A DNA stretch of 64,000 nt from Acidobacteriota bacterium (GCA_028873575.1 JAGWHY010000001.1:62001-126000); one strand, 5' to 3'. Shown: positions 10,534-23,805, counted from the stretch's first letter. Made by a program: numbers and translations. Notes: generated by a model not told the origin, from the letters alone.

Positions 10534-10579
10534 CAGGGATTTAGTGGGCCGCCCGGGTCTCGATCCCAGCACCTTGGGA
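10534..10579 (+). repeat. distal attachment-site copy (3' half of tRNA-Lys)
   Basis: 46 bases matching 17322-17367 with one mismatch. They cover the 3' part of the tRNA-Lys gene from the anticodon stem to the discriminator base, plus 11 bases beyond. No tRNA 5' half follows, so this is a duplicated att core, not a gene. The two copies are direct repeats bounding the element. Confidence 0.88.
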
Positions 10580-10684
10580 GTCGGGCCAAGCACTCCGCCG
10601 TCGTCCGTCATTGTTCAAATTACCTGGTCAATGGCCTCGTCAAGTCCACCGACGTCCGCCGAAATCCTCGCGAATCTGATGCCC

Positions 10685-10704
10685 TGGCTACATAATTGGC
10701 TACA
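10685..10704 (+). repeat. arm-type site, left end
   Basis: TGGCTACATAATTGGCTACA, itself a double GGCTACA motif. It matches 17267-17286 at 19 of 20 positions, in the same orientation. Both copies lie just inside the att cores, as expected for integrase arm-binding sites. Confidence 0.6.
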
Positions 10705-10826
10705 AAACTCTGGAAACGATGCTTCAGCCGCACTCAAAATCTGCGGCGTCGACGGCCTCGAGATTGAATTGCACGTTGGTTCTTCGGCCGATTGATTCAA
10801 ATCAATTTTGAACTGGCGTTCTCATG

Positions 10827-10846
10827 AAAAACGGACTATCAGTCCG
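10827..10846 (-). terminator. hairpin with T-run, minus strand
   Basis: On the minus strand the arms CGGACT and AGTCCG flank a GAT loop and are followed by TTTTT. It would stop transcription running leftward, opposite to the sigma-factor gene. No minus-strand gene ends here, so it may block read-through or antisense transcription at the element's left end. Confidence 0.45.
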
Positions 10847-10881
10847 CCTTCCAGAAATAGGGATGAGGCAACTGGATTTTT

Positions 10882-11553
10882 TTGGTGACGGAGACTGGAC
10901 TGGTTGGCCATTCCTTGATCCGTGTAACGCTGGCTGTGGTGCGGACAGTACTGGGAGTGAAATCCGTTGGTGACGAAGCCACCGTCTGGGCGGCGGTGCT
11001 TGACCATGACGCTGACGCGTTCGTCGCTATTTTTGACCAGCACCGTGACCGCGTCTTTCGTCACGCACTGCGAATGACCGCCAACGTGCACGACGCGGAA
11101 GACGTCACGGCGGGCGCCTTCTTTGAACTGTGGCGTCGGCAGAAGTCCGTTCGGGTGGTTGATGGTTCGGTGCTGCCATGGCTGCTCGTCACGACCACGA
11201 ATCTGGCGCGAAATCTGACGCGTGGCCTTCGGCGCTACCGCGCACTGATTGATTCACTCCCACGGGCGCAGAACGTGAGCAGTGCCGAAGATGTCGCGTT
11301 GGAACACTTCGAGGAGCTCCGAATAGCGGCGCAGATTAAAGAGGCCCTCGGGGGCCTTTCAGCGGCGGACGCGGCCCTCATCACGTTGACCATGTTCGAG
11401 CACTATTCGACCGCTCAAATCGCAGCAGCCCTCGGAATCACCGACGGTGCCGCTCGCACTCGACTTTCGCGGGCACGAGGCCGAATGGCAGACCTTCTCG
11501 TCGCGTCGGAGCACGACGAGAACGCTGCCGCTACCAAGGAGAAAAGTCGATGA
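10882..11553 (+). CDS. ECF-type RNA polymerase sigma factor (sigma-70 family)
   Basis: Region sigma2 is at about residues 45-115 (DQHRDRVFRHALRMTANV, then the -10 recognition stretch DAEDVTAGAFFELW). Region sigma4 is at about 150-210, with the helix-turn-helix STAQIAAALGITDGAARTRL. At 223 aa from TTG it is slightly long; GTG at 10957 would remove an unusual N-terminal extension and start at VKSVGDEA. It is translationally coupled (ATGA) to a one-TM protein, the usual arrangement for a sigma/anti-sigma pair. It is cargo of the tRNA-Lys element. Confidence 0.87.
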   Translation: MVTETGLVGHSLIRVTLAVVRTVLGVKSVGDEATVWAAVLDHDADAFVAIFDQHRDRVFRHALRMTANVHDAEDVTAGAFFELWRRQKSVRVVDGSVLPWLLVTTTNLARNLTRGLRRYRALIDSLPRAQNVSSAEDVALEHFEELRIAAQIKEALGGLSAADAALITLTMFEHYSTAQIAAALGITDGAARTRLSRARGRMADLLVASEHDENAAATKEKSR

Positions 11554-12377
11554 GCACCCTTGAGATGGATCCAGTCTTTGCCTCGGCATTGCGCGAAGCA
11601 CTCCTCACGACCGCAAAGGACACTCCTCGCGCGCGACGTGGTTGGCGGTGGCGCACTGGAACGGGCGTACTGCTCGGTGTGTCGCTGACGGCCGGCGGCG
11701 TGGCCCTGGCGTCGGGATTGTTCTCACCTCCGGGCGCACCAGTGAATACGCAGCTTGGGAACGTAATCACTGCCACACGAATTGGTACCGCGACCATTGC
11801 CCTTGGTGCACCACCCGCCGGAACCACTGATGTTTCTCTCGCGCTGACGTGTCTCACCGTGGGTACGTTCTACTTTCCTAACGGCTCCAGCATGAGTTGT
11901 GACGCCGCGGACATGACGCACACGTCACCCATTGATCGACAGGCGAGTGAAGTCGTTCCACTGAGTGCGGGCGTCGACTCCGTCACCATCACGACGGATC
12001 CGGGGGCTACGTGGACGCTGCAAGCGATGTACGTGAATCAGGTGACGACGCCATGGGGCGTAAACGCGAGTGGACAGACCTACGGTGTCGCGAATCAAAA
12101 CGGCACCCCAGACCTGGTCGCCGTCGTGATCAATCATGGGCTTACCCACGGCTACGTGAAGGCGAGTGACTTGAACTGCGCGGCGGGTGGTGGCGTCACG
12201 TCGCCGGCGCAAGCACTTGCGTGGGACCAAGCGAGTCAGAATCGCAATATCTCTATTCCCGTTTACGACAGCGATGGCGTGACAATTATTGGGAACTTCG
12301 TCCTTGGCTACTCGTCTAGCTCGAATGCACGAACCATGCCGCTCTCGTCACTGGATTTGAACTGTTCGACGTCATAA
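11550..12377 (+). CDS. single-pass membrane protein, putative anti-sigma partner
   Basis: 275 aa. A cytoplasmic N-terminus of about 32 residues is followed by one membrane segment (GTGVLLGVSLTAGGVALASGLF) and a large Ser/Thr/Asn-rich exported domain with several cysteines. The start overlaps the sigma-factor stop by four bases, so the two proteins are made together. The short N-terminus could hold the sigma factor until the outer domain senses a signal. There is no zinc-binding anti-sigma motif (H-x3-C-x2-C), so the role rests on context and topology only. Confidence 0.7.
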   Translation: MSTLEMDPVFASALREALLTTAKDTPRARRGWRWRTGTGVLLGVSLTAGGVALASGLFSPPGAPVNTQLGNVITATRIGTATIALGAPPAGTTDVSLALTCLTVGTFYFPNGSSMSCDAADMTHTSPIDRQASEVVPLSAGVDSVTITTDPGATWTLQAMYVNQVTTPWGVNASGQTYGVANQNGTPDLVAVVINHGLTHGYVKASDLNCAAGGGVTSPAQALAWDQASQNRNISIPVYDSDGVTIIGNFVLGYSSSSNARTMPLSSLDLNCSTS

Positions 12378-12595
12378 TCTTGCGCATCGCTCTAGGTGAT
12401 CGAGCAATTCAGCGAGGCACCTTCGGCGAACTCGGCATCCGAGAGAGCGCGTTAACCACCGTGCTGGTTCAGATCCGGGAACCGACGTCAACAATTTCCG
12501 ACTGGCGGCTGGTCCCTTGGAAACTAGATCTCCGGCTGGCGACCGGTGCCCCGATAAGCAGATCTACTGTGGGAGAAGGTAGTTGGAGGTTTGGG

Positions 12596-13192
12596 TTGAG
12601 TCATTCATCAAGAGGAATTCACGTATTGGCAGCAATCACGGGCACGGTCGTTCTCTCATTCTCGTCGGTGAACTTTCTCATGGGATCGTCGAACGCCATT
12701 GCGGCGACAGTGCCCGCCTGTTCGTCAAGCGTTCTTTCGCTAAGCCCGGGATTCACCCAGGCCTCCGCCGGCAACGTTGGCACCCCAATCGTGATAACGA
12801 ACCATGGCTCGACGGCGTGTTCAATTTCTGGCTACCCGATTGTTGTCGCCCGTACCGAGGCGACCAGTCCCCGCCCCGTCACTTTTGTACGTTGGCCCCG
12901 CTCACTGATCTACGTCGCCGCAAGCGTGAGAACGATTGTCATGGCTCCAAAGGGAACGACCTCTTTTGGCATCTCGTATATTGACGCGCTCGACCAAACG
13001 TATGGACAGGGTCGAGACTGTCTAATGAGTTCCATTACCGTTCAGCTTCCGCGTGTCATCCCCGCGCGCAAAGTAACCGTCGTTTTGCGGAAGGGATCTG
13101 ACGGCTTTGGGGGACCTATCAACTCCTGCTTTGCGGGATTTGAGTTCGGCTTAACGCCGATCGTGAAGGGGTCGACTCCACCCGAGCACTAA
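12596..13192 (+). CDS. exported DUF4232-type protein
   Basis: 198 aa from TTG 12596, chosen because GGAGG lies six bases upstream and a clean Sec signal then follows (HVLAAITGTVVLSFSSVNFL, ending ...AIAATVPA). The long upstream frame extension lacks these. The mature part is a DUF4232-like beta sandwich (ACSSSVLSLSP, NHGSTACSISGYPIV), with four cysteines that could pair outside the cell. Function unknown. It lies downstream of the sigma/membrane pair and may be in their regulon. Confidence 0.65.
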   Translation: MSHSSRGIHVLAAITGTVVLSFSSVNFLMGSSNAIAATVPACSSSVLSLSPGFTQASAGNVGTPIVITNHGSTACSISGYPIVVARTEATSPRPVTFVRWPRSLIYVAASVRTIVMAPKGTTSFGISYIDALDQTYGQGRDCLMSSITVQLPRVIPARKVTVVLRKGSDGFGGPINSCFAGFEFGLTPIVKGSTPPEH

Positions 13193-13454
13193 ACGACCTT
13201 TTGAGCGACTCTTGTTCCTGATCGCTAGTCGCTACGACCCCAAAAATACCGTTTTTGAAACTAGACAAAATGATCTCGGAGATCCGACGTAACACATATG
13301 CCACCTGGCACTCGCGACTTGAACTGCCCTGATTGGTGTCGGAGACGACGCCACGAAACCGGTCATTCTTGTCCACGGTCATGCGGTGCGATGTTCGTGT
13401 GAGGCAAAAAAAGTGGTCAGCCAAGTATAGAATTATGCTGCACTCAAAGTAAAG

Positions 13455-13466
13455 TATAATGCATTT
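13455..13466 (+). promoter_or_regulatory. leaderless promoter of the XRE-cupin regulator
   Basis: A perfect TATAAT (13455-13460), then six bases, then the ATG at 13467. No ribosome binding site is present and no good -35 box is visible. The near-repeat AAGTATAGAATTATGC (13423-13438) upstream may be part of an operator. Confidence 0.6.
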
Positions 13467-14069
13467 ATGAGCCCCGACGTCTCCCTCCTAGCCGCTGCCA
13501 TTGGCGAACGCGTGAAACAGGAGCGTCAGTTGCGTGGCTGGACCCTTGATCAGTTGGCGGAGTTGGCGGGAGCTAGTCGCCGTACCGTGGTGAACGTCGA
13601 GCACGGCACCGCGAATCCCAGTGTGGCGATTCTCCTTCGACTTAGCGACGCGCTCGGTATTGGGCTTGCTTCACTCGTCGATACCCCGGATGCTCAGGTG
13701 GTGAAGGTTGTGCGGCACGGACAGGGTGCACGGCTTTGGAGTGGTGAATCGGGCGGTAGTGGCGTGTTGGTGGCAAGCAGCGAACAACCCGACATCGTAG
13801 AACTGTGGGACTGGACCCTTCGTCCGAAGGAGCGTTACGCGAGCAACGCGCACTCTTCGGGTACGCGTGAAATGGCCCAAGTATTGAAGGGTGTCGTCAC
13901 AATCACGGTGTCGCGTGACACCTTTTCCTTGAAGGTCGGTGACGCCATCTCTTTTCCCGGTGACGCGCCGCACGTCTACGCCAACGTGGGTAGCAATCTT
14001 GCTCGCTTTTCACTGGTCGTCTTTCAACCTCGCGACGCCGGGATGTCAGGGGGAGGCCGCAGTGCCTGA
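13467..14069 (+). CDS. XRE-family regulator with C-terminal cupin domain
   Basis: 200 aa. Residues about 10-65 form the helix-turn-helix (GWTLDQLAELAGASRRTVVNVEHG). Residues about 105-185 form a cupin barrel (STR...EMAQVLKGVVTITV, LKVGDAISFPGDAPHVYAN). Such proteins sense a small ligand with the cupin and control neighbouring metabolic genes. First gene of a three-gene operon, overlapping the next start by eight bases. Confidence 0.87.
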   Translation: MSPDVSLLAAAIGERVKQERQLRGWTLDQLAELAGASRRTVVNVEHGTANPSVAILLRLSDALGIGLASLVDTPDAQVVKVVRHGQGARLWSGESGGSGVLVASSEQPDIVELWDWTLRPKERYASNAHSSGTREMAQVLKGVVTITVSRDTFSLKVGDAISFPGDAPHVYANVGSNLARFSLVVFQPRDAGMSGGGRSA

Positions 14070-14790
14070 AGTGACAAGCCTTGAACAGTTCCTCGATGAA
14101 GCAAGTGTCGACTCATCAGTATGGACACTGCGCCCGGACTACCAGGCAATACTCCTCGTCGCCGATGGACTCCTCGCAGGGCCGAGTGACGAGATTTCCG
14201 ACGCTCTCGTGCGCGCTGCCGAAATTGCGGGTCGTGACGCGCTCGGAGCTCAACCCGTGGAACAACTGGAGCACGTCGCGGCCTGGCGAGACGCCTATCG
14301 AGCGTTCGGTGCGAAGCCCCAGCGCACGCGTAGCAGTCTCGAAGCGCTTCTCCGTCGGTTGCCAATGGGACTTCCTCGCGTGAATCGGCTGACCGATATG
14401 TACAACGCCATATCAGTCATTCATCAAATCCCCGTAGGTGGGGAGGATCTGGCGAACTACGAAGGTTCCCTTCGGCTCGTTCGTGCCGGTGGCGACGAGT
14501 TTTTTGAAACTATCAACGCGGGAGTCGGGGTCGTTGAATGTCCGGAGCCGGGCGAAGTGGTCTGGCGCGACGACGTCGGCGTAACGTGTCGACGTTGGAA
14601 TTGGCGACAGACGACGCGAACGCAGCTTCGTATCGACACGACCTCGGCGCTCTTAATTTTCGACGCGTTGGCGCCAATCACCGCGCACGCTCTCAATGCC
14701 GCCGCCGATGAACTCCTTGAGCATCTTGAAAAGTTCGGTGCCAGCGTACGTTCAACACGGCGTCTCTTAACGATTAGCGAAAGGAAATGA
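14062..14790 (+). CDS. B3/B4 domain protein
   Basis: 242 aa from GTG 14062, picked because GGGGGAGG sits six bases upstream and overlaps the preceding gene's end. Most of the protein is a B3/B4 domain, related to the editing domain of phenylalanyl-tRNA synthetase beta: WRDAYRAFGAKPQRTRSSLEALLRR, MYNAISVIHQIPVGGEDL, and a C-terminal ITAHALNAAADELLEHL. Stand-alone versions are thought to handle mischarged or modified aminoacyl compounds. Two bases separate it from the PaiB-like gene. Confidence 0.82.
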   Translation: MPEVTSLEQFLDEASVDSSVWTLRPDYQAILLVADGLLAGPSDEISDALVRAAEIAGRDALGAQPVEQLEHVAAWRDAYRAFGAKPQRTRSSLEALLRRLPMGLPRVNRLTDMYNAISVIHQIPVGGEDLANYEGSLRLVRAGGDEFFETINAGVGVVECPEPGEVVWRDDVGVTCRRWNWRQTTRTQLRIDTTSALLIFDALAPITAHALNAAADELLEHLEKFGASVRSTRRLLTISERK

Positions 14791-14791
14791 C

Positions 14792-15457
14792 ATGCTGATT
14801 AACGCCTCTGACGCCGCTCTCAGTGAGGCAGAGTGGCGCGAATGGCTTCTCACCACGGATCATTTCGGCGTCCTCGCCGTCAATAATCTCGATGCCGCAC
14901 ACGCACCCATGATGGTGCCTACGCATTTCACGCTACTGGCTAATGAGTTGCTTTTACACTTGGCCACGCCTAACCCCGTTTGGCCACACTTGGAGGTCGC
15001 ACGCGAGGTTGGGCTGATCGTGACGGGTGATTACGCATACATCCCCACGTATTGGCGAGCGCCTCACGGCACTGTCGAAGAAGACGGCGTACCGACGAGT
15101 TACTACGCGGCGGTGCAGTTCCTCTGTCGACCGTCGGTGGTCGATGATTCGCGAGAGAAGGCTGAGCTCCTTGGCGATCAACTCGGCGGGTTTCAACCTG
15201 AGGGACGCCACGCTGAGGTACGCGCTGACGGTGGTCCCTACGCGCGTATGTTGCCGGGAATTCGCGGACTGCGTCTAGAAGTATTGAGAGTAGACGCCAA
15301 GTTCAAGTACGACGATTCCAAATCGGTTGAACATCGTGAAAAAGTGATCCGTTACCTCGAGCAGCGTGATCGTGGCGTCGACCGCGGAGCGGCGCGTCAG
15401 CAACGGCGGCGCCTCAATGAGATTGGCGACTGGCGGCATTTTCGAGAAAATAGCTAA
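14792..15457 (+). CDS. FMN-binding negative transcriptional regulator-like protein (PaiB family)
   Basis: 221 aa. A split-barrel flavin-binding fold like PaiB: MMVPTHF near residue 40, HLATPNPVWPHLE, GDYAYIPTYWRAP and a central SYYAAVQFLCRPSVV. The C-terminus LRLEVLRVDAKFKYDDSKS is characteristic, although the tail is unusually basic. It closes the XRE-cupin / B3-B4 / PaiB operon. The three together suggest a small flavin-linked detoxification or amine/amino-acid response unit, but the substrate is not evident. Confidence 0.8.
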   Translation: MLINASDAALSEAEWREWLLTTDHFGVLAVNNLDAAHAPMMVPTHFTLLANELLLHLATPNPVWPHLEVAREVGLIVTGDYAYIPTYWRAPHGTVEEDGVPTSYYAAVQFLCRPSVVDDSREKAELLGDQLGGFQPEGRHAEVRADGGPYARMLPGIRGLRLEVLRVDAKFKYDDSKSVEHREKVIRYLEQRDRGVDRGAARQQRRRLNEIGDWRHFRENS

Positions 15458-15599
15458 GTATGAGCATTCAACAAAACTTGATTGATGTATAGACAGGTTC
15501 ATCACCATTTGTCTTCTGATTCATTTCTTTGGTCCTAGGGCCGGTGCCCGGGCCGACGGGCGCGTAGCGCCAAGGAGGCCGTTCGGGCTATCCGAGTGA

Positions 15600-15635
15600 T
15601 TCTCAAAATCGTTGAAATTTCACGGGTTCTCAAAA
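15600..15635. promoter_or_regulatory. palindrome flanked by direct repeats upstream of excisionase gene
   Basis: The perfect palindrome TGAAATTTCA (15613-15622) is bracketed by two copies of TTCTCAAAA (15600-15608 and 15627-15635). It lies about 100 bases before the excisionase start, with a TATAAG (15691-15696) between. It could be an operator or an excisionase-binding cluster. Confidence 0.4.
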
Positions 15636-15733
15636 AAGTTTAGTGATCGAGCAAGAAATTTTGTTCGATATGGCCAAAAAACGTGGTCCTTATAAGTAGG
15701 GGGCGAAAATCTCGCTCCTCGAAAGGGAGCACC

Positions 15734-16033
15734 GTGAAACTGTCGATTAAAGATCTTTCGGAAAGCCACAAGTGTTGTTCGATGACGCACGATCTGGACG
15801 TCGGCGTATCGGAACACACGTGCGAAGACGGAAATGCTGCTCGACCGTTGGGCATGGCGGACGTTCAGCTACTGACGGTGGCAGAAGTAGCGAGAACGCT
15901 CGCCATCGGTCGCTCCAGTGTCTATGAATTGATGTACAGGGGCGATTTGAAGTCAGTGAAAATTGGAGGTTGCCGGCGAATTCGTTACAGCGACCTGGGA
16001 GAGTACGTGCGCTACCTCGACGACGCCTCCTAG
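15734..16033 (+). CDS. excisionase-family helix-turn-helix protein
   Basis: 99 aa from GTG 15734, preceded by GAAAGGGAG at good distance. The C-terminal ~55 residues form the MerR-like excisionase fold (LLTVAEVARTLAIGRSSVYELMYRGDL, then KIGGCRRIRYSDLGEYV). The first ~40 residues are cysteine/histidine-containing and not recognised. Placed just before the integrase, it is expected to control directionality or integrase expression. Confidence 0.82.
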   Translation: MKLSIKDLSESHKCCSMTHDLDVGVSEHTCEDGNAARPLGMADVQLLTVAEVARTLAIGRSSVYELMYRGDLKSVKIGGCRRIRYSDLGEYVRYLDDAS

Positions 16034-16089
16034 GTCTCGGTCTCGGCGGATGACAGTGGTGGAGTGGCGTGAGGTGAAAGGAGAGTTCC

Positions 16090-17394
16090 ATGAGTAGTCG
16101 ACGAGGTAAGGGCGAGGGCTCGATCTATCAGCGAGAAGACGGTGTGTGGATCGGCGCGATTGATCTTGGTTGGGTTAATGGCAGGCGCAAGCGCAAAGTC
16201 ATCAGTGCGCCCACGAGAGGTGAAGTCGTGAAGCGTGTGCGAGAACTCCAACCAGTCATTGCTCAAGGCGTTATGCCCGCCTCAGACCGATTAACGGTTG
16301 GTCAATATCTCAATGACTGGCTCGCTCATCGAATCGCTGGCACGGTGACAACGAGGACCGAGGACCTCTACGAGCGAGCCGTGAAGGTCTACATCAACCC
16401 TTCGATTGGCAAGATCCGTCTGAACAAGCTCACTCCGTCAGACGTCAGTCGAATGCTCCAGGAACTCGAAGCCAAGGGCTACTCGCCGGCGACGCGTCGA
16501 ATGGCGAGAGCAACATTGCGACGGGCACTTCGAATGGCCGAACAGGACGGCGTCTTGAACCGAAACGTGGCGTCAATCGCGGAAGGGCCGAAATTGGACC
16601 AGCGCCGTGGTCGGAGCTTGACGCCCGAACAGGCGAAGCAGTTCCTTCGTGCGGTCGAGGGTCATCGTCACGAGGCTGCGTACGTGCTGGCGCTGTCGCT
16701 CGGACTTCGTCGCGGAGAGATTCTTGGGCTCACGTGGCACGACGTCGAGCGAGCTGAAGACGCCGTCGTCCTCCAAATACGCCGTCAACTCGTGCGCGAC
16801 AAGAACGGTGTCCACCTCGTTGATCTAAAGACCGTGGGCAGTCGGCGAACACTGCACCTTTCGCGACCCCTCGTCGACATTCTCGAGCGCCACCGAGTTC
16901 GCCAAGAAGCCGAGGAACTGGTGCGCGGCTTTCGATGGCATAACGATCATGAATTGATTTTCACCTCCAACGTCGGCACCTCCCTCGATCCAGACGAGTT
17001 CGGAAAGACCGTGCCCAAGATCTGCGTCGAAGCAGGTCTCGGTCGCTGGTCGATCCACGAATTGCGCCACTCGTGCGCGTCACTACTGATGGCGATGGAA
17101 GTACCCATTGAGATCGTGGCCGAACAGATGGGCCACGCCTCGATTCGGGTCACTAAGGACGTCTACGGGCACCTGATGCCGCGCTCTCGAGCTCGTGCGG
17201 CCGAGGCGATGCGTTCGATGTTGTTCGATGAATCAACGCAGGAGAGTGCGAATCCGTCCGTCGCGTTGGCTACATCATTGGCTACATTCGAGCCCGAAAG
17301 ATTATTTAACACTCTGCTGATCAGGGATTTAGTGGGCCGCCCGGGTCTCGATCCCGGCACCTTGGGATTAAAAGTCCCCTGCTCTACCCGATGA
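16090..17394 (+). CDS. tyrosine-recombinase integrase
   Basis: 434 aa. N-terminal arm-binding AP2-like segment (GSIYQREDGVWIGAIDLGW), a SAM-like core-binding domain at about 65-165, then the catalytic domain. Catalytic residues are intact: Arg207 (GLRRGE), His323 and Arg326 (HELRH), His349 (GHASI), Tyr359 (VYGHLM). ATG follows GAAAGGAGAG. The last ~20 residues (VGRPGLDPGTLGLKVP...) are encoded by the complement of the tRNA-Lys gene, so the integrase ORF runs through its own attachment site. It mediates integration of the 10.53-17.37 kb element. Confidence 0.93.
   Translation: MSSRRGKGEGSIYQREDGVWIGAIDLGWVNGRRKRKVISAPTRGEVVKRVRELQPVIAQGVMPASDRLTVGQYLNDWLAHRIAGTVTTRTEDLYERAVKVYINPSIGKIRLNKLTPSDVSRMLQELEAKGYSPATRRMARATLRRALRMAEQDGVLNRNVASIAEGPKLDQRRGRSLTPEQAKQFLRAVEGHRHEAAYVLALSLGLRRGEILGLTWHDVERAEDAVVLQIRRQLVRDKNGVHLVDLKTVGSRRTLHLSRPLVDILERHRVRQEAEELVRGFRWHNDHELIFTSNVGTSLDPDEFGKTVPKICVEAGLGRWSIHELRHSCASLLMAMEVPIEIVAEQMGHASIRVTKDVYGHLMPRSRARAAEAMRSMLFDESTQESANPSVALATSLATFEPERLFNTLLIRDLVGRPGLDPGTLGLKVPCSTR
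17267..17286 (+). repeat. arm-type site, right end
   Basis: Matches the left-end site (10685-10704) at 19 of 20 positions and in the same orientation. It lies within the integrase 3' coding end, 35 bases before the att core. Confidence 0.6.
17322..17367 (+). repeat. attachment-site core at the tRNA-Lys 3' end
   Basis: 46-base direct repeat of 10534-10579 with a single mismatch. It starts 11 bases outside the tRNA 3' end and stops in the anticodon stem. Identity ending there fits strand exchange at the anticodon arm, the classic site for tRNA-targeting integrases. Confidence 0.88.
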
Positions 17395-17405
17395 GCTAGC
17401 GGCCC
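17333..17405 (-). tRNA. tRNA-Lys (anticodon TTT)
   Basis: 73-base cloverleaf on the minus strand. Acceptor stem GGGCCGC/GCGGCCC, D-arm GCTC-ATCGGGTA-GAGC, anticodon arm GGGGA-CTTTTAA-TCCCA (TTT), T-arm CCGGG-ATCGAGA-CCCGG, discriminator A, CCA not encoded. All stems pair except the closing G-A of the anticodon stem. The T-loop begins with A where position 54 is almost always T. It is the integration target of the neighbouring element. Confidence 0.92.
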
Positions 17406-17470
17406 GGTGGATGGCGAAATGCATTGAGAAATGCTTTGCCGCCGGAGTTCACAGATTAGTCCAGGTGAAT
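17397..17470 (+). repeat. tRNA 5' flank, copy 1 of a diverged repeat
   Basis: About 72 bases, including the first seven of the tRNA (as GCGGCCC) and its upstream flank. They reappear at 23732-23805: GTGGATGGC is identical, and the later part matches 27 of 32 bases around CCGGAG and ACAGATTAG. GGATGGCGAAATG (17409-17421) also occurs inverted at 22241 and 23717. Confidence 0.65.
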
Positions 17471-17496
17471 TACCAGTGTTCACCCTTTGCGGCGCC

Positions 17497-17541
17497 AAGA
17501 CGGCGATCTCGCCGCCGCGATGGTGACGAGATCGCCGTCTT
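17497..17541 (-). terminator. 15-bp perfect inverted repeat after the transposase-like gene
   Basis: Perfect arms AAGACGGCGATCTCG (17497-17511) and its complement (17527-17541) with a 15-base loop, starting 40 bases beyond the minus-strand stop. No T-run follows on the minus strand, so it would act as a strong 3'-end hairpin rather than a canonical terminator. It could also be an element-end structure. Confidence 0.5.
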
Positions 17542-17580
17542 AAAAGTTCAACGGTACTTCGCCGACGAGACGAGTTGGGT

Positions 17581-19218
17581 TCAGCTCGCCAGTTCGAGCG
17601 CCGACTCCATGAGGTCCGCTTCTCCGCCGTGAACCAATCGGTCCACGATCTTCCAGCCCGCCTGGAAGTACCACGACTTGGCGTTTTCGTAGATGAAGTA
17701 GAGGTGCACGTCGAGCAGGATGGGGATCCGACCGACCGCCTGGGCACGCTTGTGGGGATAGGTGGCCTTGTGGTGAGCGTTCCCGCCTTCTGACGTGTTG
17801 CGACTGGCTCCGTAGAGAGCCTTGAAAACGTCGTCACCTTCCGGGAAGACGCGATAGTTCTCGGCGATCTTGCGGCCGTCGTCTCCGCTTTCCTTGTGCG
17901 GCGAGATCCACACCTCGAAGTCGCCGTGTCGGCACGTGATGGTGTAGCCAACACTGATCCGGTAGTGCGCCCCCAGCGCCGTCAACTCGTGTGCTTTCTT
18001 CACCTGAAGGCGTTTGGGTGTATTCACGACGACCATGTTGGCCCCGTCCTGGTCCCAGTCAACTTCCACGAGAGTGCCGTCATGGGCCTCGAGGAGGTGG
18101 TGACATGGAGCGCCGTCGTCTCGATGATGAGTGACACGGCGGACGGGGAGAGTCTTGATTCGCTTGCCCTTGGCGTTGAGCACGTCGCGATACCCTACGT
18201 CCTTGGCCGCCGCTGCAGCGACCTTGTTGACCGTGATGATGCCGTGTTCCTTGTAGAGCGCGACGTGGTGGACCCCGCGCAAGATCAAGTCGGTGATCAT
18301 GCACTGGACCCTGCCCTGCAAGCGCCCATCCACGACGCGCTTGACGAGTCGAAGTGTGGTCTTGGCCTCCTCGCTGTCCTTGAAGTCCATGTCGATCCCG
18401 AGGGTGACGCGGCTGTTGGGTTCACTGCTGCGCACGCTGAGCGGCACGACGTTGTACGCGGCTTGGGTTGGACCGTACTTGCCGCTCGCGATTGCCTCCA
18501 CATCCACCGGGATCTTCTTCAGCACCTCGCCCGTGTCGGGGTCGACGGCCGTCCACTTCTTGTCGACCTCGATTAGCCAGGCGCGGACACTACGGTCGCG
18601 ACCGGGGTCGATAGCGGCCAACCGCAATCTGTTCCCATCGGTGGGGTCTTCGACCATGTCGACGTAGGAGCGGTACTGAGACCTGATCTCGGTACCGTCG
18701 CTGAAAAGTGATGAGTTGAGGGCCGGGTTGGAGAGCGAACCTTCCTGGAAGTAGCCGAACGCCAGAGCCTGGTCCACCGCCGACTCGGTGAATGCGGAGG
18801 CGAAGACGTCGAAGCGGGTTGGCTGGACCTTGATCCGCTCAACCATGTAGCGCCAGTGGGCGGCGCTGACGGGCTTGCGAGGTAGCTCGTCGGGTTCGTC
18901 GTCGCCAACGACGCCAGAATGCTTCGCGAGCCGCCAGTGCTTGCGGATGGCCTGCCACGTGTCGGGGGTGCGAAACATGGCTTCGGCCTTGGGCAAGCTG
19001 CGACACACCCGCGACATCACGCCGATGAGCAGGACGATCGCTTTGGGGTAGTCGCTGTCACGATGGCCAGAGACGTTCGCGTCATCCTTCGCGTAGGTCA
19101 GCGAGCCCGCGACCTGGTGGAAGTGCGGGTCGTACAGCATGATGATCGCCATCTCGAGGTCGCTCAAGGTCGCCGTTCGGGCGCCGAGCAGCGGACGGGG
19201 GCGGTGGCGCGCGCTCAC
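17581..19218 (-). CDS. DDE-transposase-like protein
   Basis: 545 aa from GTG 19218, which overlaps the upstream stop (GTGA); the longer open frame has a composition unlike protein. It resembles a family of large actinobacterial transposase-like proteins: SDGTEIRSQY near residue 175, then three acidic positions in typical spacing. These are Asp276 (GIDMDF), Asp310 (MITDLILRGVHH) and Glu477 (LYGASRNTSEGGN), with a helical LDVHLYFIYENAK after the last. This D-D-E reading is by eye. It is coupled to a recombinase-like protein and controlled from a divergent XRE operator region. It lies within the accessory block beside tRNA-Lys. Confidence 0.65.
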   Translation of the reverse strand: MSARHRPRPLLGARTATLSDLEMAIIMLYDPHFHQVAGSLTYAKDDANVSGHRDSDYPKAIVLLIGVMSRVCRSLPKAEAMFRTPDTWQAIRKHWRLAKHSGVVGDDEPDELPRKPVSAAHWRYMVERIKVQPTRFDVFASAFTESAVDQALAFGYFQEGSLSNPALNSSLFSDGTEIRSQYRSYVDMVEDPTDGNRLRLAAIDPGRDRSVRAWLIEVDKKWTAVDPDTGEVLKKIPVDVEAIASGKYGPTQAAYNVVPLSVRSSEPNSRVTLGIDMDFKDSEEAKTTLRLVKRVVDGRLQGRVQCMITDLILRGVHHVALYKEHGIITVNKVAAAAAKDVGYRDVLNAKGKRIKTLPVRRVTHHRDDGAPCHHLLEAHDGTLVEVDWDQDGANMVVVNTPKRLQVKKAHELTALGAHYRISVGYTITCRHGDFEVWISPHKESGDDGRKIAENYRVFPEGDDVFKALYGASRNTSEGGNAHHKATYPHKRAQAVGRIPILLDVHLYFIYENAKSWYFQAGWKIVDRLVHGGEADLMESALELAS

Positions 19219-20252
19219 TGCTGATCCCAGGAGTAGTCGATCTTCTGGGCGGCCATGTCGAGGCTCTTCAGCCCCATCGCTTGGGCGGCGGCTTCGAGTC
19301 GGTGTTCGGGGGCGGCCTCGAACACCTGGCGACCAGCCCAGAAAGCGATGGAAGCGGGACGCAGGTCGCGCTCCTGGTTCAGGCCGGCGCGACGCAACAC
19401 CTCGGTGATCGATTGGCACATGGACGCGGTCGGACTGACCTCACCACGCTTCTTGGTTCCGGCGTAGACGATCGACTCGTTCATCTTGAGTGTTCCGTCA
19501 CGACGAAGTACCTTGATCCGTCCTCGCAGGACGCGTTGTCCAAAGAGTGACAGCGGTACAACGCGCGCCTTCACCCAGGGCGTGCCAAGGAACTCAACCT
19601 TCGTCGGGTTGTCCAGGTCGTCAAGGTGCTCGAAGGTCACAAAGGGGATCTCCGCGGTCAGTCCCGTGGCCTCGGCGAGCGCCAGGATCATCGGCTGTCG
19701 GCTGGCTCGTGAGGCCAGTGCGTGCATCTCAAGGAGGGCAATCTCGTCATCCGTTGCCGCCCGCGTGGTCAACTGCGAACGGGTCGGAAGGATGATGCCC
19801 CGTGTGGGGTCCTTGGAGATCAGGCCAATGCGGTGCAGAGTGGAGAAGCCGGCGCGGAGCGACGAGCGACGCAGGTGCAGTGTGCTGACGGACGGTTCTT
19901 CGGCGTCGCTGTTTCGCGAGTGGACGAACGCCTCGCAGACGACCTGGTCGAAGTCCGGTCCCCAGTGCGTGATGCCGAGACGTTCGGCGCGCCGCGTGGC
20001 CTGGGCCAGGATCTCGGCGAAGCGCGCCTGCGTGGAGAAGGCGAGTTCATCCAGGGCGTGCCAGTAGCTCGTGATGATCGCAAAGCCCTCGGCGAGGGTC
20101 GGTGCGTTTCTCAGGTTGGTGGCTGCCATCACGACACTCCGCGTCGCGATGGGTAGGAGGCATGAGATGTCCTCCCTCTCTTCGGCCATGTCGCGCAGTG
20201 CTGTGCCGTAGGCCTCGAGATCCTCGAGGTAGTTGTCATTGGTCGTGTCCAT
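19215..20252 (-). CDS. tyrosine-recombinase-like protein lacking catalytic residues
   Basis: 345 aa from ATG 20252 (GAAAGGA just upstream). The C-terminal half follows the tyrosine-recombinase layout: LALAEATGLTAEIPFV where active enzymes have GLRxGE, a beta hairpin VKARVVPLSLFG, a box II-like LRPASIAFWAGRQVFE in place of HxLRH, and a last helix with AMGLKSLDMAAQKIDYSW. The box I Arg and box II His-x-x-Arg are missing, so it probably binds DNA without cutting. It overlaps the transposase-like gene by four bases, indicating joint action, perhaps as a targeting or regulatory subunit. Confidence 0.6.
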   Translation of the reverse strand: MDTTNDNYLEDLEAYGTALRDMAEEREDISCLLPIATRSVVMAATNLRNAPTLAEGFAIITSYWHALDELAFSTQARFAEILAQATRRAERLGITHWGPDFDQVVCEAFVHSRNSDAEEPSVSTLHLRRSSLRAGFSTLHRIGLISKDPTRGIILPTRSQLTTRAATDDEIALLEMHALASRASRQPMILALAEATGLTAEIPFVTFEHLDDLDNPTKVEFLGTPWVKARVVPLSLFGQRVLRGRIKVLRRDGTLKMNESIVYAGTKKRGEVSPTASMCQSITEVLRRAGLNQERDLRPASIAFWAGRQVFEAAPEHRLEAAAQAMGLKSLDMAAQKIDYSWDQQ

Positions 20253-20322
20253 TGGATTCCTTTCGCATTTGAAGTTGCCCAATGACTCGTTTGGTCGCCG
20301 ACGCGAGGCGCAGTTGTGGCAT
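20236..20322 (-). CDS. possible 28-residue leader ORF
   Basis: ATG 20322 is preceded at 11 bases by AGGAGGTG (20334-20341), the best ribosome binding site in the area. The frame encodes 28 residues (MPQLRLASATKRV...) and ends 17 bases inside the recombinase-like gene, in another frame. It may drive translational coupling. Alternatively the same site serves a longer form of the main protein from GTG 20336, but that codon overlaps the binding site. Confidence 0.35.
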   Translation of the reverse strand: MPQLRLASATKRVIGQLQMRKESNGHDQ

Positions 20323-20350
20323 GAATAGCGAAACACCTCCTGAACTGGTA

Positions 20351-20394
20351 ATTCTGCCTAGAGCAGAATACTACTATTCTGCCTAGAGCGAAAT
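20351..20394. promoter_or_regulatory. two tandem palindromic operators between divergent genes
   Basis: Operator 1 (20351-20369) is ATTCTGC-CTAGA-GCAGAAT, a perfect 7-bp inverted repeat. Operator 2 (20376-20394) repeats the left arm and centre exactly and has two changes in the right arm. Centres are 25 bp apart, so two dimers could not sit on the same DNA face without distortion. They lie upstream of both the XRE gene and the recombinase-like/transposase-like pair, the natural target of the XRE protein. Confidence 0.72.
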
Positions 20395-20411
20395 CAAGTG
20401 CCGGGTTGACC

Positions 20412-20423
20412 TAGATTTCTCTC
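20412..20423 (+). promoter_or_regulatory. leaderless promoter of the XRE regulator
   Basis: TAGATT (20412-20417), six bases, then the ATG at 20424. No ribosome binding site. Operator 2 covers the -35 zone (about 20389-20394), so binding there would shut off the gene's own promoter. Confidence 0.6.
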
Positions 20424-20684
20424 ATGGTGACTCCGACGGGAAACGCTGCGCTTGGCGCACGGCTAAGGGAGCTTCGCCAGGAGAAGGGACTGAAGTTGGC
20501 AGCCTTGGCCCATCAGTCTGGAGTGTCGTTGGCCTACGTCTCTGAGGTTGAGCGGGGGAGGAAGCTTCCGTCGCTTGAGGTCCTGGACCGCCTGGCCGGG
20601 GCTCTAGGGCTGTCAGTGCTTGAGGTGCTTGACGGGGTCTCACCGTATGACCGCGTGAACGTCCGTAGGCGATCATCGAGATAG
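20424..20684 (+). CDS. XRE-family helix-turn-helix regulator
   Basis: 86 aa, almost entirely one HTH domain (LGARLRELRQEKGLKLAALAHQSGVSLAYVSEVERGRKLPSLEVL), then DRLAGALGLSVLEVLDG and a basic tail. The size and fold match phage- and ICE-type repressors or the ClgR-like class. It is divergent from the recombinase-like/transposase-like operon with twin operators between, so it is probably their switch and an autorepressor. A broken paralogue lies at 22140-22368. Confidence 0.87.
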   Translation: MVTPTGNAALGARLRELRQEKGLKLAALAHQSGVSLAYVSEVERGRKLPSLEVLDRLAGALGLSVLEVLDGVSPYDRVNVRRRSSR

Positions 20685-20727
20685 AACAGCGATTGTCGCT
20701 GATCAACAAGATGGAGGGGGTGACGTA

Positions 20728-22059
20728 GTGGAGTCGAGAGCGTATACAGGTTCCATTGGGAGCGAATCGAACTGTGGCATTTCGAACAAGGATGGCAAGA
20801 GTCAATGCGTCACTTCGAGCATTCGCAGCACCTTTGCCCTGGTAGCGGTTCTTCTAACGGTCGGCGCAGCACTCAGCGTCCCTGTTGCGTCGGGCTTCGC
20901 CTCAACCCTTGGCAGCCCGCGACCAGTTTTGCATCCCGTATCCATCTCATTCCTGACGGCACGACACGGTTTCGTACTCTCCGTGAATGACTGCGCGACA
21001 CGGACGTGCGTCTCTCTCGCGAAGACGGATGACGCCGGAGCAACGTGGACGTCGCTGTCTCTCCCGTCGCAGTTGAGTCGGGAGATCCGGACGATTTCTT
21101 GGTACGCGTATCCCAACTACTTTGTCTCGGAGTCATTGACGGTGCACTTCGCTGACCCGCGAGATGGGTGGATTTATGGCGTGATTCCCGCGCCGGCGAC
21201 GGCAACGCAACCGAGTCCGAACTTCGTCGACCAGCTCTGGTCAACCCACAACGGTGGTGGATCATGGACGACACTCTCACTGAGTGGACTGGGCATCGAC
21301 AGCGGCGTGGCCCAGATGGCGACCCACGGAGCACTGACCTATCTTTTTGGCTCGTCCTACGTCACGGGTCATTCCCGCATTCTCTCGACGCCCAATGCTC
21401 GCGACCGGTGGACCAGTGCTAGCCCTCCGATGGGAATACCCGCTGGCGGCAGCCAGTTGCAAGGAGCCTTTACCTTCGCGGGTAAGCGGGGCTGGTTAGT
21501 CAGCGGGAACGACCGCGGCATCCAGTCGCTTGAGCAGTTGACTCCCAGCGGAACTTGGACAACGTGGCACGTGAAGTCTCTCGCCCTCGGCGAGGGATTC
21601 ACGCCGGTCATCGCAGAGTCGAGCCGTGACTTGGTGGTGGTGACCAGCGATGCAGGTTGGTACTTCCCGCCGCCAGCGGATGCTCCCCTGGGCTGGTCCA
21701 AGGGAGCGACGTGGCTTTTCCTGTCCCGTGACAGTGGTAAGACCTTCAACGCCGTTCACGAGCTCGCGAAGTCTTCTGCCACGGGTTTCCCAACGGAGAA
21801 CGGCCTGCCGGCAGTGCCAACGCCCGGGACCATCTTTGTTGAGCGAGAGTCCGGGACGAGCACGACGACATTTCAGCTCCTGATGAGCAAAGACGCTGGG
21901 CGAACGTGGCGAGTCGTCATCAGTCAGCGGGTACTTCAGGTCGCCTTCGCCACGGCGAGCGTTGGGTACGTCATCGTCGTACCCAACTCGGACCCTCGGC
22001 GGGCGAGCCTTTGCAAGACCACCGACGGTGGAATGCGGTGGTCGAGTCAGGCGGTATAG
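20728..22059 (+). CDS. exported protein with BNR/Asp-box repeats (beta-propeller)
   Basis: 443 aa. GTG 20728 follows GGAGGGGG. Residues about 31-57 are a hydrophobic export segment (FALVAVLLTVGAALSVPVASG). At least five Asp-box motifs follow: TDDAGATWTSL, HNGGGSWTTL, RDSGKTFNAV, KDAGRTWRVV, TTDGGMRWSS. This is the mark of sialidase-like propellers. No sialidase catalytic residues were recognised, so a binding or structural role outside the cell is more likely. It is 43 bases after the XRE gene and perhaps read with it. Confidence 0.78.
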   Translation: MESRAYTGSIGSESNCGISNKDGKSQCVTSSIRSTFALVAVLLTVGAALSVPVASGFASTLGSPRPVLHPVSISFLTARHGFVLSVNDCATRTCVSLAKTDDAGATWTSLSLPSQLSREIRTISWYAYPNYFVSESLTVHFADPRDGWIYGVIPAPATATQPSPNFVDQLWSTHNGGGSWTTLSLSGLGIDSGVAQMATHGALTYLFGSSYVTGHSRILSTPNARDRWTSASPPMGIPAGGSQLQGAFTFAGKRGWLVSGNDRGIQSLEQLTPSGTWTTWHVKSLALGEGFTPVIAESSRDLVVVTSDAGWYFPPPADAPLGWSKGATWLFLSRDSGKTFNAVHELAKSSATGFPTENGLPAVPTPGTIFVERESGTSTTTFQLLMSKDAGRTWRVVISQRVLQVAFATASVGYVIVVPNSDPRRASLCKTTDGGMRWSSQAV

Positions 22060-22139
22060 GAAACCCGTTCAAATCGGGGTGAACCAAGGCTCGTTAGCTC
22101 AACGACCGCTACCGACCGATCTGTTCGGGGGTGTGGTGC

Positions 22140-22368
22140 TTCCTCTTCACGGTGACATCCTCTCGCTCCACGAGGGAGCATCGGGCCTCTCGTCAGCCGT
22201 GGCTCAGTTCAAGGGGATCTCCGCACGCCAGTCCGGTAGCCATTTCGCCATCCACCCCCGTCCCTGGAAGTTTTGAGCCGTCTCGCCGGCGCACTTGAGA
22301 TGAGCGTCAGTGACGTCTTACAGGGGATTGAGTCGTACAACCGGGTGGCCCCGCGCCGCCGACAATGA
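22140..22368 (+). pseudogene. broken paralogue of the XRE regulator
   Basis: The first part (LSLHEGASGLSSAVAQFKGIS) aligns with LRELRQEKGLKLAALAHQSGVS of the intact gene. The second part, in another frame (PSLEVLSRLAGALEMSVSDVLQGIESYNRVAPRRRQ, then stop), aligns with its C-terminus. The middle, covering the recognition helix, is lost and replaced at 22237-22253 by the 17-bp repeat also found at 23713-23729. Confidence 0.65.
22237..22253 (+). repeat. 17-bp repeat, copy 1
   Basis: TAGCCATTTCGCCATCC, identical to 23713-23729. It sits exactly at the break in the XRE pseudogene. Its last 13 bases are the inverted form of 17409-17421 beside tRNA-Lys. Confidence 0.65.
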
Positions 22369-22486
22369 TCCAAAGTCAGGAGATCTGGGAGCAGACCCTG
22401 ATCAGAGTTTTCTTTGCGGTGTTGTCATCGCCATATCTCATGGTCTCGACGTGGAGTTTGCGCGCAACGCGCGTAATGTCGAAAGC

Positions 22487-23374
22487 ATGAGTCGTTTCGG
22501 GATTCTTGCCTCACTCGCGGTGTTGTTCGCTTCGTCTGTTGTTGATGCGGTTCCCGGATACGCCGCCTCATCCGCCTCAATGACGACCCCCGGACCCATG
22601 GCCGTGACACCTGCTGGAACCCTTTACGTGGCTAGCGGACGCGAGATGTATCGCTTCAATGGAGGTGCTTTTACCCCGGTTGCACGATCAGCTCGACCGA
22701 TTGAGAGCATGGCATCGTCGCGGAGTGGCTTCATCTACCTAGGAGAAGGCAATCTGCTCCAGGTTTTGACGCCGACTGGCACGGTCACAACTGTTACGCA
22801 CACCCAAGTGAGCGGATTGGGAAACGGCCCGGGTGGCGACATCATGGTGGTCTCTTACTCTGGGGTCGCTCGACTAGTCGGTCGTCACCTCGTCAGAGTG
22901 GTGCGCGCCTCGCAGTTCGCGGGACTCAAGGGAGCGCCCAAGGACGTGGGCGCATTCAACTTCGGGAACGTTGCGGTGAATGGATCTGGGGACATTTTCC
23001 TGAGTGCCCTTGGTGTTGGATGGAGCCTCTACGAAGTCAGTCGCGCTGGACGTGCACGGTACGTGGGAGTTGCTCGGGGTGCAGGAGGAATACCCTCCCC
23101 TCTCGTAGAGAGCCAGGGCGGGCACGTCTTTCTTGGGGTACAGAACTCCATTGAGACGGTGAAGGGTCTCAAGATTCTCGGCTTCCAGTCTTTCTCACTC
23201 GGTTCTGTGCCACGCGTCAAGGGCACCTTTGCACCCGCTTACCTGGCCGCGTCATCAGAATCCGCCGGGCCAATTTACGCCGACACCGTGAAGGGGCAAG
23301 GCTGGTCTAGTAACTCCGCAGTTATCGCTGTCTACCCAGACCACCGCGTGGTCACGCTTTGGGTGCACAACTAG
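22487..23374 (+). CDS. exported beta-propeller-like protein
   Basis: 295 aa from ATG 22487, chosen because a Sec signal starts right there (MSRFGILASLAVLFASSVVDAVPGYAAS); the 59 upstream in-frame residues look non-coding. The mature part has short repeating strand pairs (GPMAVTPAGTLYVASG, SRSGFIYLGEGNLLQVL, NVAVNGSGDIFLSALG) typical of NHL-like propellers. No enzyme motif seen. It lies between the two 17-bp repeats and follows a broken XRE gene, mirroring the XRE plus exported-protein order at 20424-22059. Confidence 0.65.
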   Translation: MSRFGILASLAVLFASSVVDAVPGYAASSASMTTPGPMAVTPAGTLYVASGREMYRFNGGAFTPVARSARPIESMASSRSGFIYLGEGNLLQVLTPTGTVTTVTHTQVSGLGNGPGGDIMVVSYSGVARLVGRHLVRVVRASQFAGLKGAPKDVGAFNFGNVAVNGSGDIFLSALGVGWSLYEVSRAGRARYVGVARGAGGIPSPLVESQGGHVFLGVQNSIETVKGLKILGFQSFSLGSVPRVKGTFAPAYLAASSESAGPIYADTVKGQGWSSNSAVIAVYPDHRVVTLWVHN

Positions 23375-23712
23375 TCACATTGTTAATGCAGCTTCAGGTA
23401 GGCGCAATAGAGATCAGCGGAAGCACTCCGAAACGCGGGGACAATGACGTCGGTGTGGTTTCTGGCGCCTTGGTCAACTCCTACTCACGGGCAGTCGTTC
23501 CGTGAGCGGAAGCATCGCGTCACGAGGTGTCGACGTTTGATGGTGCCGACTCTGAGGTTGGTCCTTGGTGCAGGAGGAGCGTTGTGGGCCTTCATCTGCG
23601 TGTCGTCCAAATGAGTCTCTGTACAGAAATTCGTATGAACCCTGACCAAAGCGCTATCCGTTCCAGATTCGGTTGATTGGTGCTCGCGAGGGATTTCTAG
23701 AACCCAATGAAA

Positions 23713-23729
23713 TAGCCATTTCGCCATCC
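23713..23729 (+). repeat. 17-bp repeat, copy 2
   Basis: Identical to 22237-22253. With the following flank copy it forms an inverted repeat, GCCATCC (23723-23729) against GGATGGC (23744-23750), around the AGCGGCCC tRNA remnant. Confidence 0.65.
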
Positions 23730-23731
23730 GC

Positions 23732-23805
23732 CAGCGGCCCAGTGGATGGCAACGGTAATGACTAATTGGCCACCGGAGAAAACAGATTAGCCCAGCTGAA
23801 AGAGG
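23732..23805 (+). repeat. tRNA 5' flank, copy 2
   Basis: Diverged direct repeat of 17397-17470. It contains only the outermost seven tRNA bases, so no second tRNA gene is present. It marks the probable right boundary of the accessory block. Confidence 0.6.

Follow-up and report, generated by a model that had tools for sequence, protein, structure and literature searches.

Integrative elements that target tRNA genes carry an active tyrosine integrase, usually restore the 3' part of the tRNA and leave its promoter untouched. TnsF of Tn6022 is an inactivated tyrosine-recombinase protein that serves as the target selector of a Tn7-like transposon (PMC10293859). Fixed positions in tRNA genes are also occupied by Dada, a group of eukaryotic DDE transposons (PMC3706591). 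Here, we describe a 6,327-bp element (17406..23732, minus strand) in the 64,000-nucleotide stretch JAGWHY010000001.1:62001-126000 (GCA_028873575.1), the whole of which is called the window. It is very likely a site-specific cargo transposon, in which a predicted DDE-type transposase (P1) is paired with a dead tyrosine-recombinase homologue (P2) and insertion falls between nucleotides (nt) 8 and 9 of a tRNA gene.

With tRNA-targeting integrative elements, the element shares the tRNA landing site, the restored tRNA, tandem accretion and adaptive cargo, but it differs from them in its use of the 5' end, its DDE-type enzyme and its apparent promoter replacement. Like Tn6022, it combines a DDE transposon and a recruited inactivated tyrosine recombinase with site-specific insertion, a target duplication and cargo (PMC10293859). 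Unlike Tn6022, it relies on two genes rather than five, its enzyme is DDE_Tnp_1/IS4-like and not TnsB, and its targets are tRNA 5' ends. The alignment of P2 with XerD covers almost the entire protein; TnsF, by contrast, has zinc fingers, two CB domains and just part of a catalytic domain. The window element shows no gene for an ATPase or for TniQ and does not have the rve-type TnsB, TnsC and TniQ of Tn7-like transposons. The likeness to Dada lies in the fixed tRNA-gene position, the duplication and the tandem insertions (PMC3706591). Dada elements, however, are eukaryotic, encode a single transposase with no recombinase-like partner and create a 6-7-bp duplication, and no terminal inverted repeats are described for the Dada U6 and U1 families; the present element is bacterial and has clear inverted repeats and an 8-bp duplication. 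We found no description of this transposon family in the literature or in the libraries that we searched, although most subscription literature lay outside our coverage and an earlier description is possible.

The conserved P2-P1 gene pair

P2 (345 amino acids, 20252..19215) and P1 (545 amino acids, 19218..17581) are both encoded on the minus strand, and their open reading frames (ORFs) overlap by 4 nt (GTGA), as a first-pass annotation of this DNA had described. That annotation had further proposed a mobile module coupling a non-catalytic recombinase-like protein to a DDE-type enzyme, which is supported by the recurrence of the pair and by the ends and duplications described below. P1 relatives occur in 18 of 395 genomes of the class and, by profile search, in 24 of 396 genomes of the phylum, a patchy distribution. 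Across the phylum, almost all loci that have an intact P1 gene also have a P2 homologue directly upstream of it, in the same order, so that the suggested co-occurrence of the two genes is indeed found. The most distant pair, at 25% identity, resides on a Streptomyces mirabilis plasmid. P2-P1 is a conserved two-gene module. No relatives were found in phages or in viral contigs. In three loci (L034, L035 and L036), the P1 and P2 genes are tandem or doubled with no adjoining tRNA, possibly representing a subfamily with another target.

Within the P1 family, D174 (part of a DG motif), D310 and R473 are invariant in all 21 relatives, and E477 is present in 20, the sole exception being a truncated protein. 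The triad had initially been placed at D276-D310-E477; D310 and E477 hold, but D276 is not conserved and the first acidic residue is D174. The spacing of the triad is D(86-135)D(145-173)E. Most members display a Y-(2)-R-(3)-E-(6)-K/D pattern, with Y or F in most and with R and E conserved, while the window P1 itself has Y-(3)-R instead of Y-(2)-R. P1 and its relatives match Pfam DDE_Tnp_1 (6 of 21 members, best E=8.5e-4) and not rve; a single-sequence search of Pfam, NCBIfam and PDB with the window P1 returned no useful match. The conserved acidic triad typical of DDE transposons is present in P1, which on sequence grounds is a predicted DDE-type transposase with D174, D310 and E477 as its putative catalytic residues. 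The pattern around E477 resembles the Y-(2)-R-(3)-E-(6)-K signature of the IS4 family, whose duplications measure 8-13 bp (PMC2266710). IS4 elements, however, have one ORF, ends that mostly start with C, a D(60-110)D(100-150)E spacing and no tRNA specificity (PMC2266710); the present elements depart from them in ORF number (two), in spacing and in ends, which start with GG or similar.

For P2, a profile of 18 members that included no active integrase matches XerD (1a0p) over residues 7-274 with E=1e-9, followed by XerA and other recombinases. This homology covers the core-binding and catalytic domains of the tyrosine recombinase superfamily and agrees with the recombinase layout first ascribed to the 345-residue protein. 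As a single sequence, P2 matches only the phrog_1 integrases, and weakly (E=1.6e-5). The catalytic positions were read against the active integrase next door (16090-17394). The nucleophile Tyr and the HxxR His are retained in 0 of 18 members, the box-II His in 1, the box-I Arg in 3 and the HxxR Arg in 10. The catalytic loss thus goes further than the missing box-I Arg and HxxR motif claimed at first, and P2 does not carry the R, H, R, H/W and nucleophilic Y set of an active tyrosine recombinase. With both the nucleophile Tyr and the HxxR His absent from all 18 members, the family has been conserved without its chemistry, and P2 is a catalytically dead homologue of tyrosine recombinases.

Insertion at the 5' end of tRNA genes

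In the window, P1 ends 175 bp from the start of an intact tRNA-Lys(UUU) gene (17332..17405) on the same strand. Across Actinomycetota, a same-strand tRNA gene lies 49-217 bp downstream of P1 in 22 loci. The targets comprise Lys(ttt), Arg(cct), Arg(ccg), Thr(tgt), Thr(ggt), Ala(tgc), Phe(gaa) and one tRNA-like gene with anticodon att. As a background, the studied loci (1.15 Mb) contain 1,931 ORFs with 200 codons or more, of which 27 are followed on their own strand by a tRNA at a distance of 40-230 bp; P1 accounts for most of the 27, with about eight exceptions. In L051 (469-544), a P1 remnant adjoins a tRNA-Lys-like gene whose anticodon is ATT (called Asn) and which is possibly a decaying or altered tRNA.

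The right end in most loci is a conserved sequence resembling TTTCGCCATCC(A/C)CC that stops exactly at tRNA nt 1. In the window, the right terminal inverted repeat (GCATTTCGCCATCCACC, 17406..17422) ends at this position. An inverted copy of the right end, GGCGGATGGCGAAATGG, is found 6,327 bp upstream at the left terminal inverted repeat (GGCGGATGGCGAAATGGCTA, 23713..23732), the repeats spanning about 16 bp. Just before it stands GGGCCGCT, an exact copy of tRNA nt 1-8, so that the 8-bp duplication is seen at 23733..23740 (left copy) and at 17398..17405 (right copy, tRNA-Lys nt 1-8), all on the minus strand. Repeat and duplication combined, the window left junction matches at 23 of 24 positions, while 400 shuffled queries reach at most 19. 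Left junctions with all eight tRNA bases were also found in G404 (Lys; at -23,328, with an older one at -28,887), G385 (Lys), G127 (Ala, GGGGACGT), and G598 and G023 (Arg, GCCCTCGT). In the window and in these five genomes, the best left-junction score is reached by none of the 400 shuffles; that of G250 (Lys) is weaker, being reached by 0.3% of shuffles. Among 99 genomes of the genus, the left-junction pattern occurs in 7 and the right in 19, with no matches in the reversed control. The right-end-derived query detected no left ends in G083, G145, G019 (apart from a scar in L166), G110, G667, G520 and G559.

In G385, a metagenome-assembled genome, one scaffold carries an empty and a filled site on either side of a 10-N gap; their flanks match and the 8-bp duplication is present. 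The assembler seems to have joined the alleles of two strains at this gap, which makes the empty/filled evidence strong but assembly-dependent. Terminal inverted repeats with a duplication of fixed length, a general feature of DDE transposons, are therefore present in the window, G404, G385, G127, G598 and G023, where the element ends and target-site duplications proposed as a check of the initial idea were thus recovered. Read from these junctions, insertion falls between tRNA nt 8 and 9, with the 8-bp duplication rebuilding the tRNA and leaving the gene intact.

The same site has been occupied repeatedly. In G404, L201 and L203, the left flank of an element is the right end of an older copy, in the order right repeat, tRNA nt 1-8, left repeat, and the same order follows a P1 gene in L046 and L166. 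New insertions evidently use the rebuilt tRNA end. At many tRNA-Lys loci of the genus, including L088 (G208) and L078 (G441), element right ends stand upstream of tRNA-Lys with no intact P1 or P2 nearby; these are either remnants or non-autonomous derivatives.

Because insertion separates the tRNA from its native promoter, a promoter-like sequence in the element end is a candidate replacement. Each of the 21 right ends examined contains one -10-like hexamer (TANNNT) 41-80 nt upstream of the tRNA. Between -85 and -58, such a hexamer occurs in 15 of 21, compared with a mean of 3.2 and a maximum of 9 in shuffles. In the window, the element-borne TAATCT (17453..17458, minus strand) is located at -53. 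The displaced native promoter region lies in the left flank (23741..23800, minus strand; compare the empty allele in L053), with its TAATCT at -49, before the orphaned nt 1-8. The element end therefore appears to bring a substitute tRNA promoter, whose activity is putative.

Target selection and competing explanations

We postulate that P1, on recognising the inverted repeats of approximately 16 bp, cuts the element and links it to DNA across a stagger of 8 bp, while P2 would direct P1 to the 5' part of tRNA genes. With a cut between nt 8 and 9, the duplication would restore nt 1-8 beside the rest of the tRNA, and the outward promoter-like sequence at the right end would take the place of the displaced native promoter. 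If the elements are mobile today, each new copy would enter at this restored position and displace its predecessors upstream, with tRNA nt 1-8 left as a scar between elements. P2 probably helps to choose the target, given the precedent of TnsF (PMC10293859) and the strict retention of P2 with P1. For the complete scheme, an ATPase-free two-protein system in which the dead recombinase reads the tRNA 5' part and places the DDE transposase between nt 8 and 9, the staggered cut repairs the tRNA and the element end supplies a promoter, our confidence is evenly divided.

The target isotype does not cluster on either tree, with 8 changes on the P1 tree (shuffled mean 8.4) and 7 on the P2 tree (shuffled mean 7.4), and the well-supported sister elements L155 and L048 use Lys and Arg. 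An isotype choice encoded by P2 phylogeny is thus unsupported. Either the targets switch easily, or a common tRNA feature is read, such as the AGCTCA block from nt 9. As the isotype does not follow P2 phylogeny, P2 need not read the tRNA. A possible, if less probable, arrangement is that the transposase P1 reads the tRNA gene on its own, while P2 has a different task, such as regulation of P1 or the binding or bending of the element ends. Contact between P2 and the tRNA is putative, and the right and left repeats around the 8 bp resemble a recombinase site, so that P2 could bind the ends; the TnsF precedent and the strict retention of P2 nevertheless favour a targeting role, short of proof. 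The same resemblance would suit a tyrosine-recombinase integrative element, with the 8 bp as the crossover core that attP and the tRNA have in common and the right repeat, 8 bp and left repeat as a site of the loxP/dif kind; the chemistry would then belong to P2 or to a recombinase supplied in trans, and P1 would be accessory. In its favour are the recombinase homology of P2, the frequent use of tRNA genes by recombinases and the inverted repeat that would flank the 8 bp once the ends are joined. We consider this unlikely, since both the nucleophile Tyr and the HxxR His are absent from all 18 P2 proteins, the acidic triad of P1 is invariant, and the tRNA side has no inverted-repeat copy downstream of the 8 bp.

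That the pair is a domesticated or dead relic, its tRNA association inherited from a single old insertion, would accord with the many genus members that keep mere remnants beside tRNA-Lys; the different isotypes, the intact triads of divergent members, the nested insertions and the empty allele instead argue for repeated transposition and render a relic very unlikely. Least probable of all, and barely credible, is that the pair is a passenger of the neighbouring integrative element with its active integrase (16090-17394). In the window, the tRNA does separate the pair from this integrase, and the pairs of L040 and L041 have recombinase genes beside them as well. The integrase element, however, sits at the tRNA 3' end with att repeats of its own (10537-10579 and 17325-17367), whereas the element of the pair has different ends, placed exactly at the tRNA 5' end and accompanied by an 8-bp duplication, and this holds even for loci without an integrase nearby. 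Mobilisation of the pair by this integrase was rejected, as its att repeats are on the other side of the tRNA.

Several observations weigh against the site-specific transposon that we favour. The DDE_Tnp_1 matches of P1 members are weak. Both AlphaFold2 models, built from three input sequences, were too poor to use (predicted local distance difference test, pLDDT, of 33 for P1 and 39 for P2) and were disregarded, so that the folds of the two proteins rest on sequence profiles; an RNase H fold, general in DDE transposases, is putative for P1. The genomes are mostly metagenome-assembled, the empty/filled scaffold of G385 includes an assembly gap, and in about seven loci the left end was not recovered, perhaps because it lies outside the stretch searched or has decayed. 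The pairs in L033, L034, L035 and L036 adjoin no tRNA, and the failure of the isotype to follow P2 phylogeny counts here as well.

If P2 is the selector, the transposon would represent a minimal protein-guided targeting system that manages with two genes where Tn6022 has five. A DDE transposon would then have recruited a dead tyrosine recombinase for a second time, apparently independently. As tRNA genes exist in every bacterium and are kept intact by the insertion, it would be a natural 'safe harbour' inserter. Islands, which here include arsenic and chromate genes, could also accumulate at Actinomycetota tRNA genes through such transposition and not through integrases alone. Unrecognised elements are predicted at tRNA 5' ends, where scans of tRNA 3' ends would miss them.

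Element architecture, cargo and neighbouring sequences

The interval first singled out (17581-20423) captured the pair and left out the element ends, the cargo and the target tRNA, which together extend over 17332-23740. A divergent XRE-type regulator gene (20424..20684, plus strand; HTH_31, E=6e-16) is present, as had been noted, and so are twin 19-bp repeats (ATTCTGCCTAGAGCAGAAT; 20351-20369 and 20376-20394) between it and P2, which are likely XRE operators. The XRE switch had been counted as part of the module, yet L002 and L003, the two closest relatives, are the only ones that clearly share the gene, which does not define the module. Between the P1 stop and the element end, a hairpin with 20-nt arms (17497..17541) is a likely terminator.

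The window cargo encodes two probable secreted proteins, one of 443 amino acids with weak BNR/YCF48-like matches (20728..22059, plus strand) and one of 354 amino acids that matches no family (22310..23374, plus strand). The 23.3-kb copy in G404 (C8:37674-61001, loci L098 and L003) carries ArsA (E=6.5e-226), ACR3, an ArsC-like reductase, an ArsR-family regulator, a chromate transporter and V-type ATPase subunits. The older upstream copy in the same genome holds gamma-glutamyltransferase-like and amino-acid ABC transporter genes.

Within 22121-22256, a sequence of about 105 bp, which has no Rfam match, is repeated in about one third of the genus genomes. Directly after it, inside the element, is an extra copy of the left repeat (22237-22256); a shorter element bounded by this internal repeat was rejected, as its flank has no copy of tRNA nt 1-8. 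On the other side of the tRNA, 10537-17375 forms a separate integrative element of about 6.8 kb at the 3' end of the same tRNA-Lys. It comprises the active tyrosine integrase and the 43-bp att repeats given above, together with an HTH_17 excisionase-like gene (15683-16033). Two unrelated systems thus occupy the window tRNA-Lys, one on either side.
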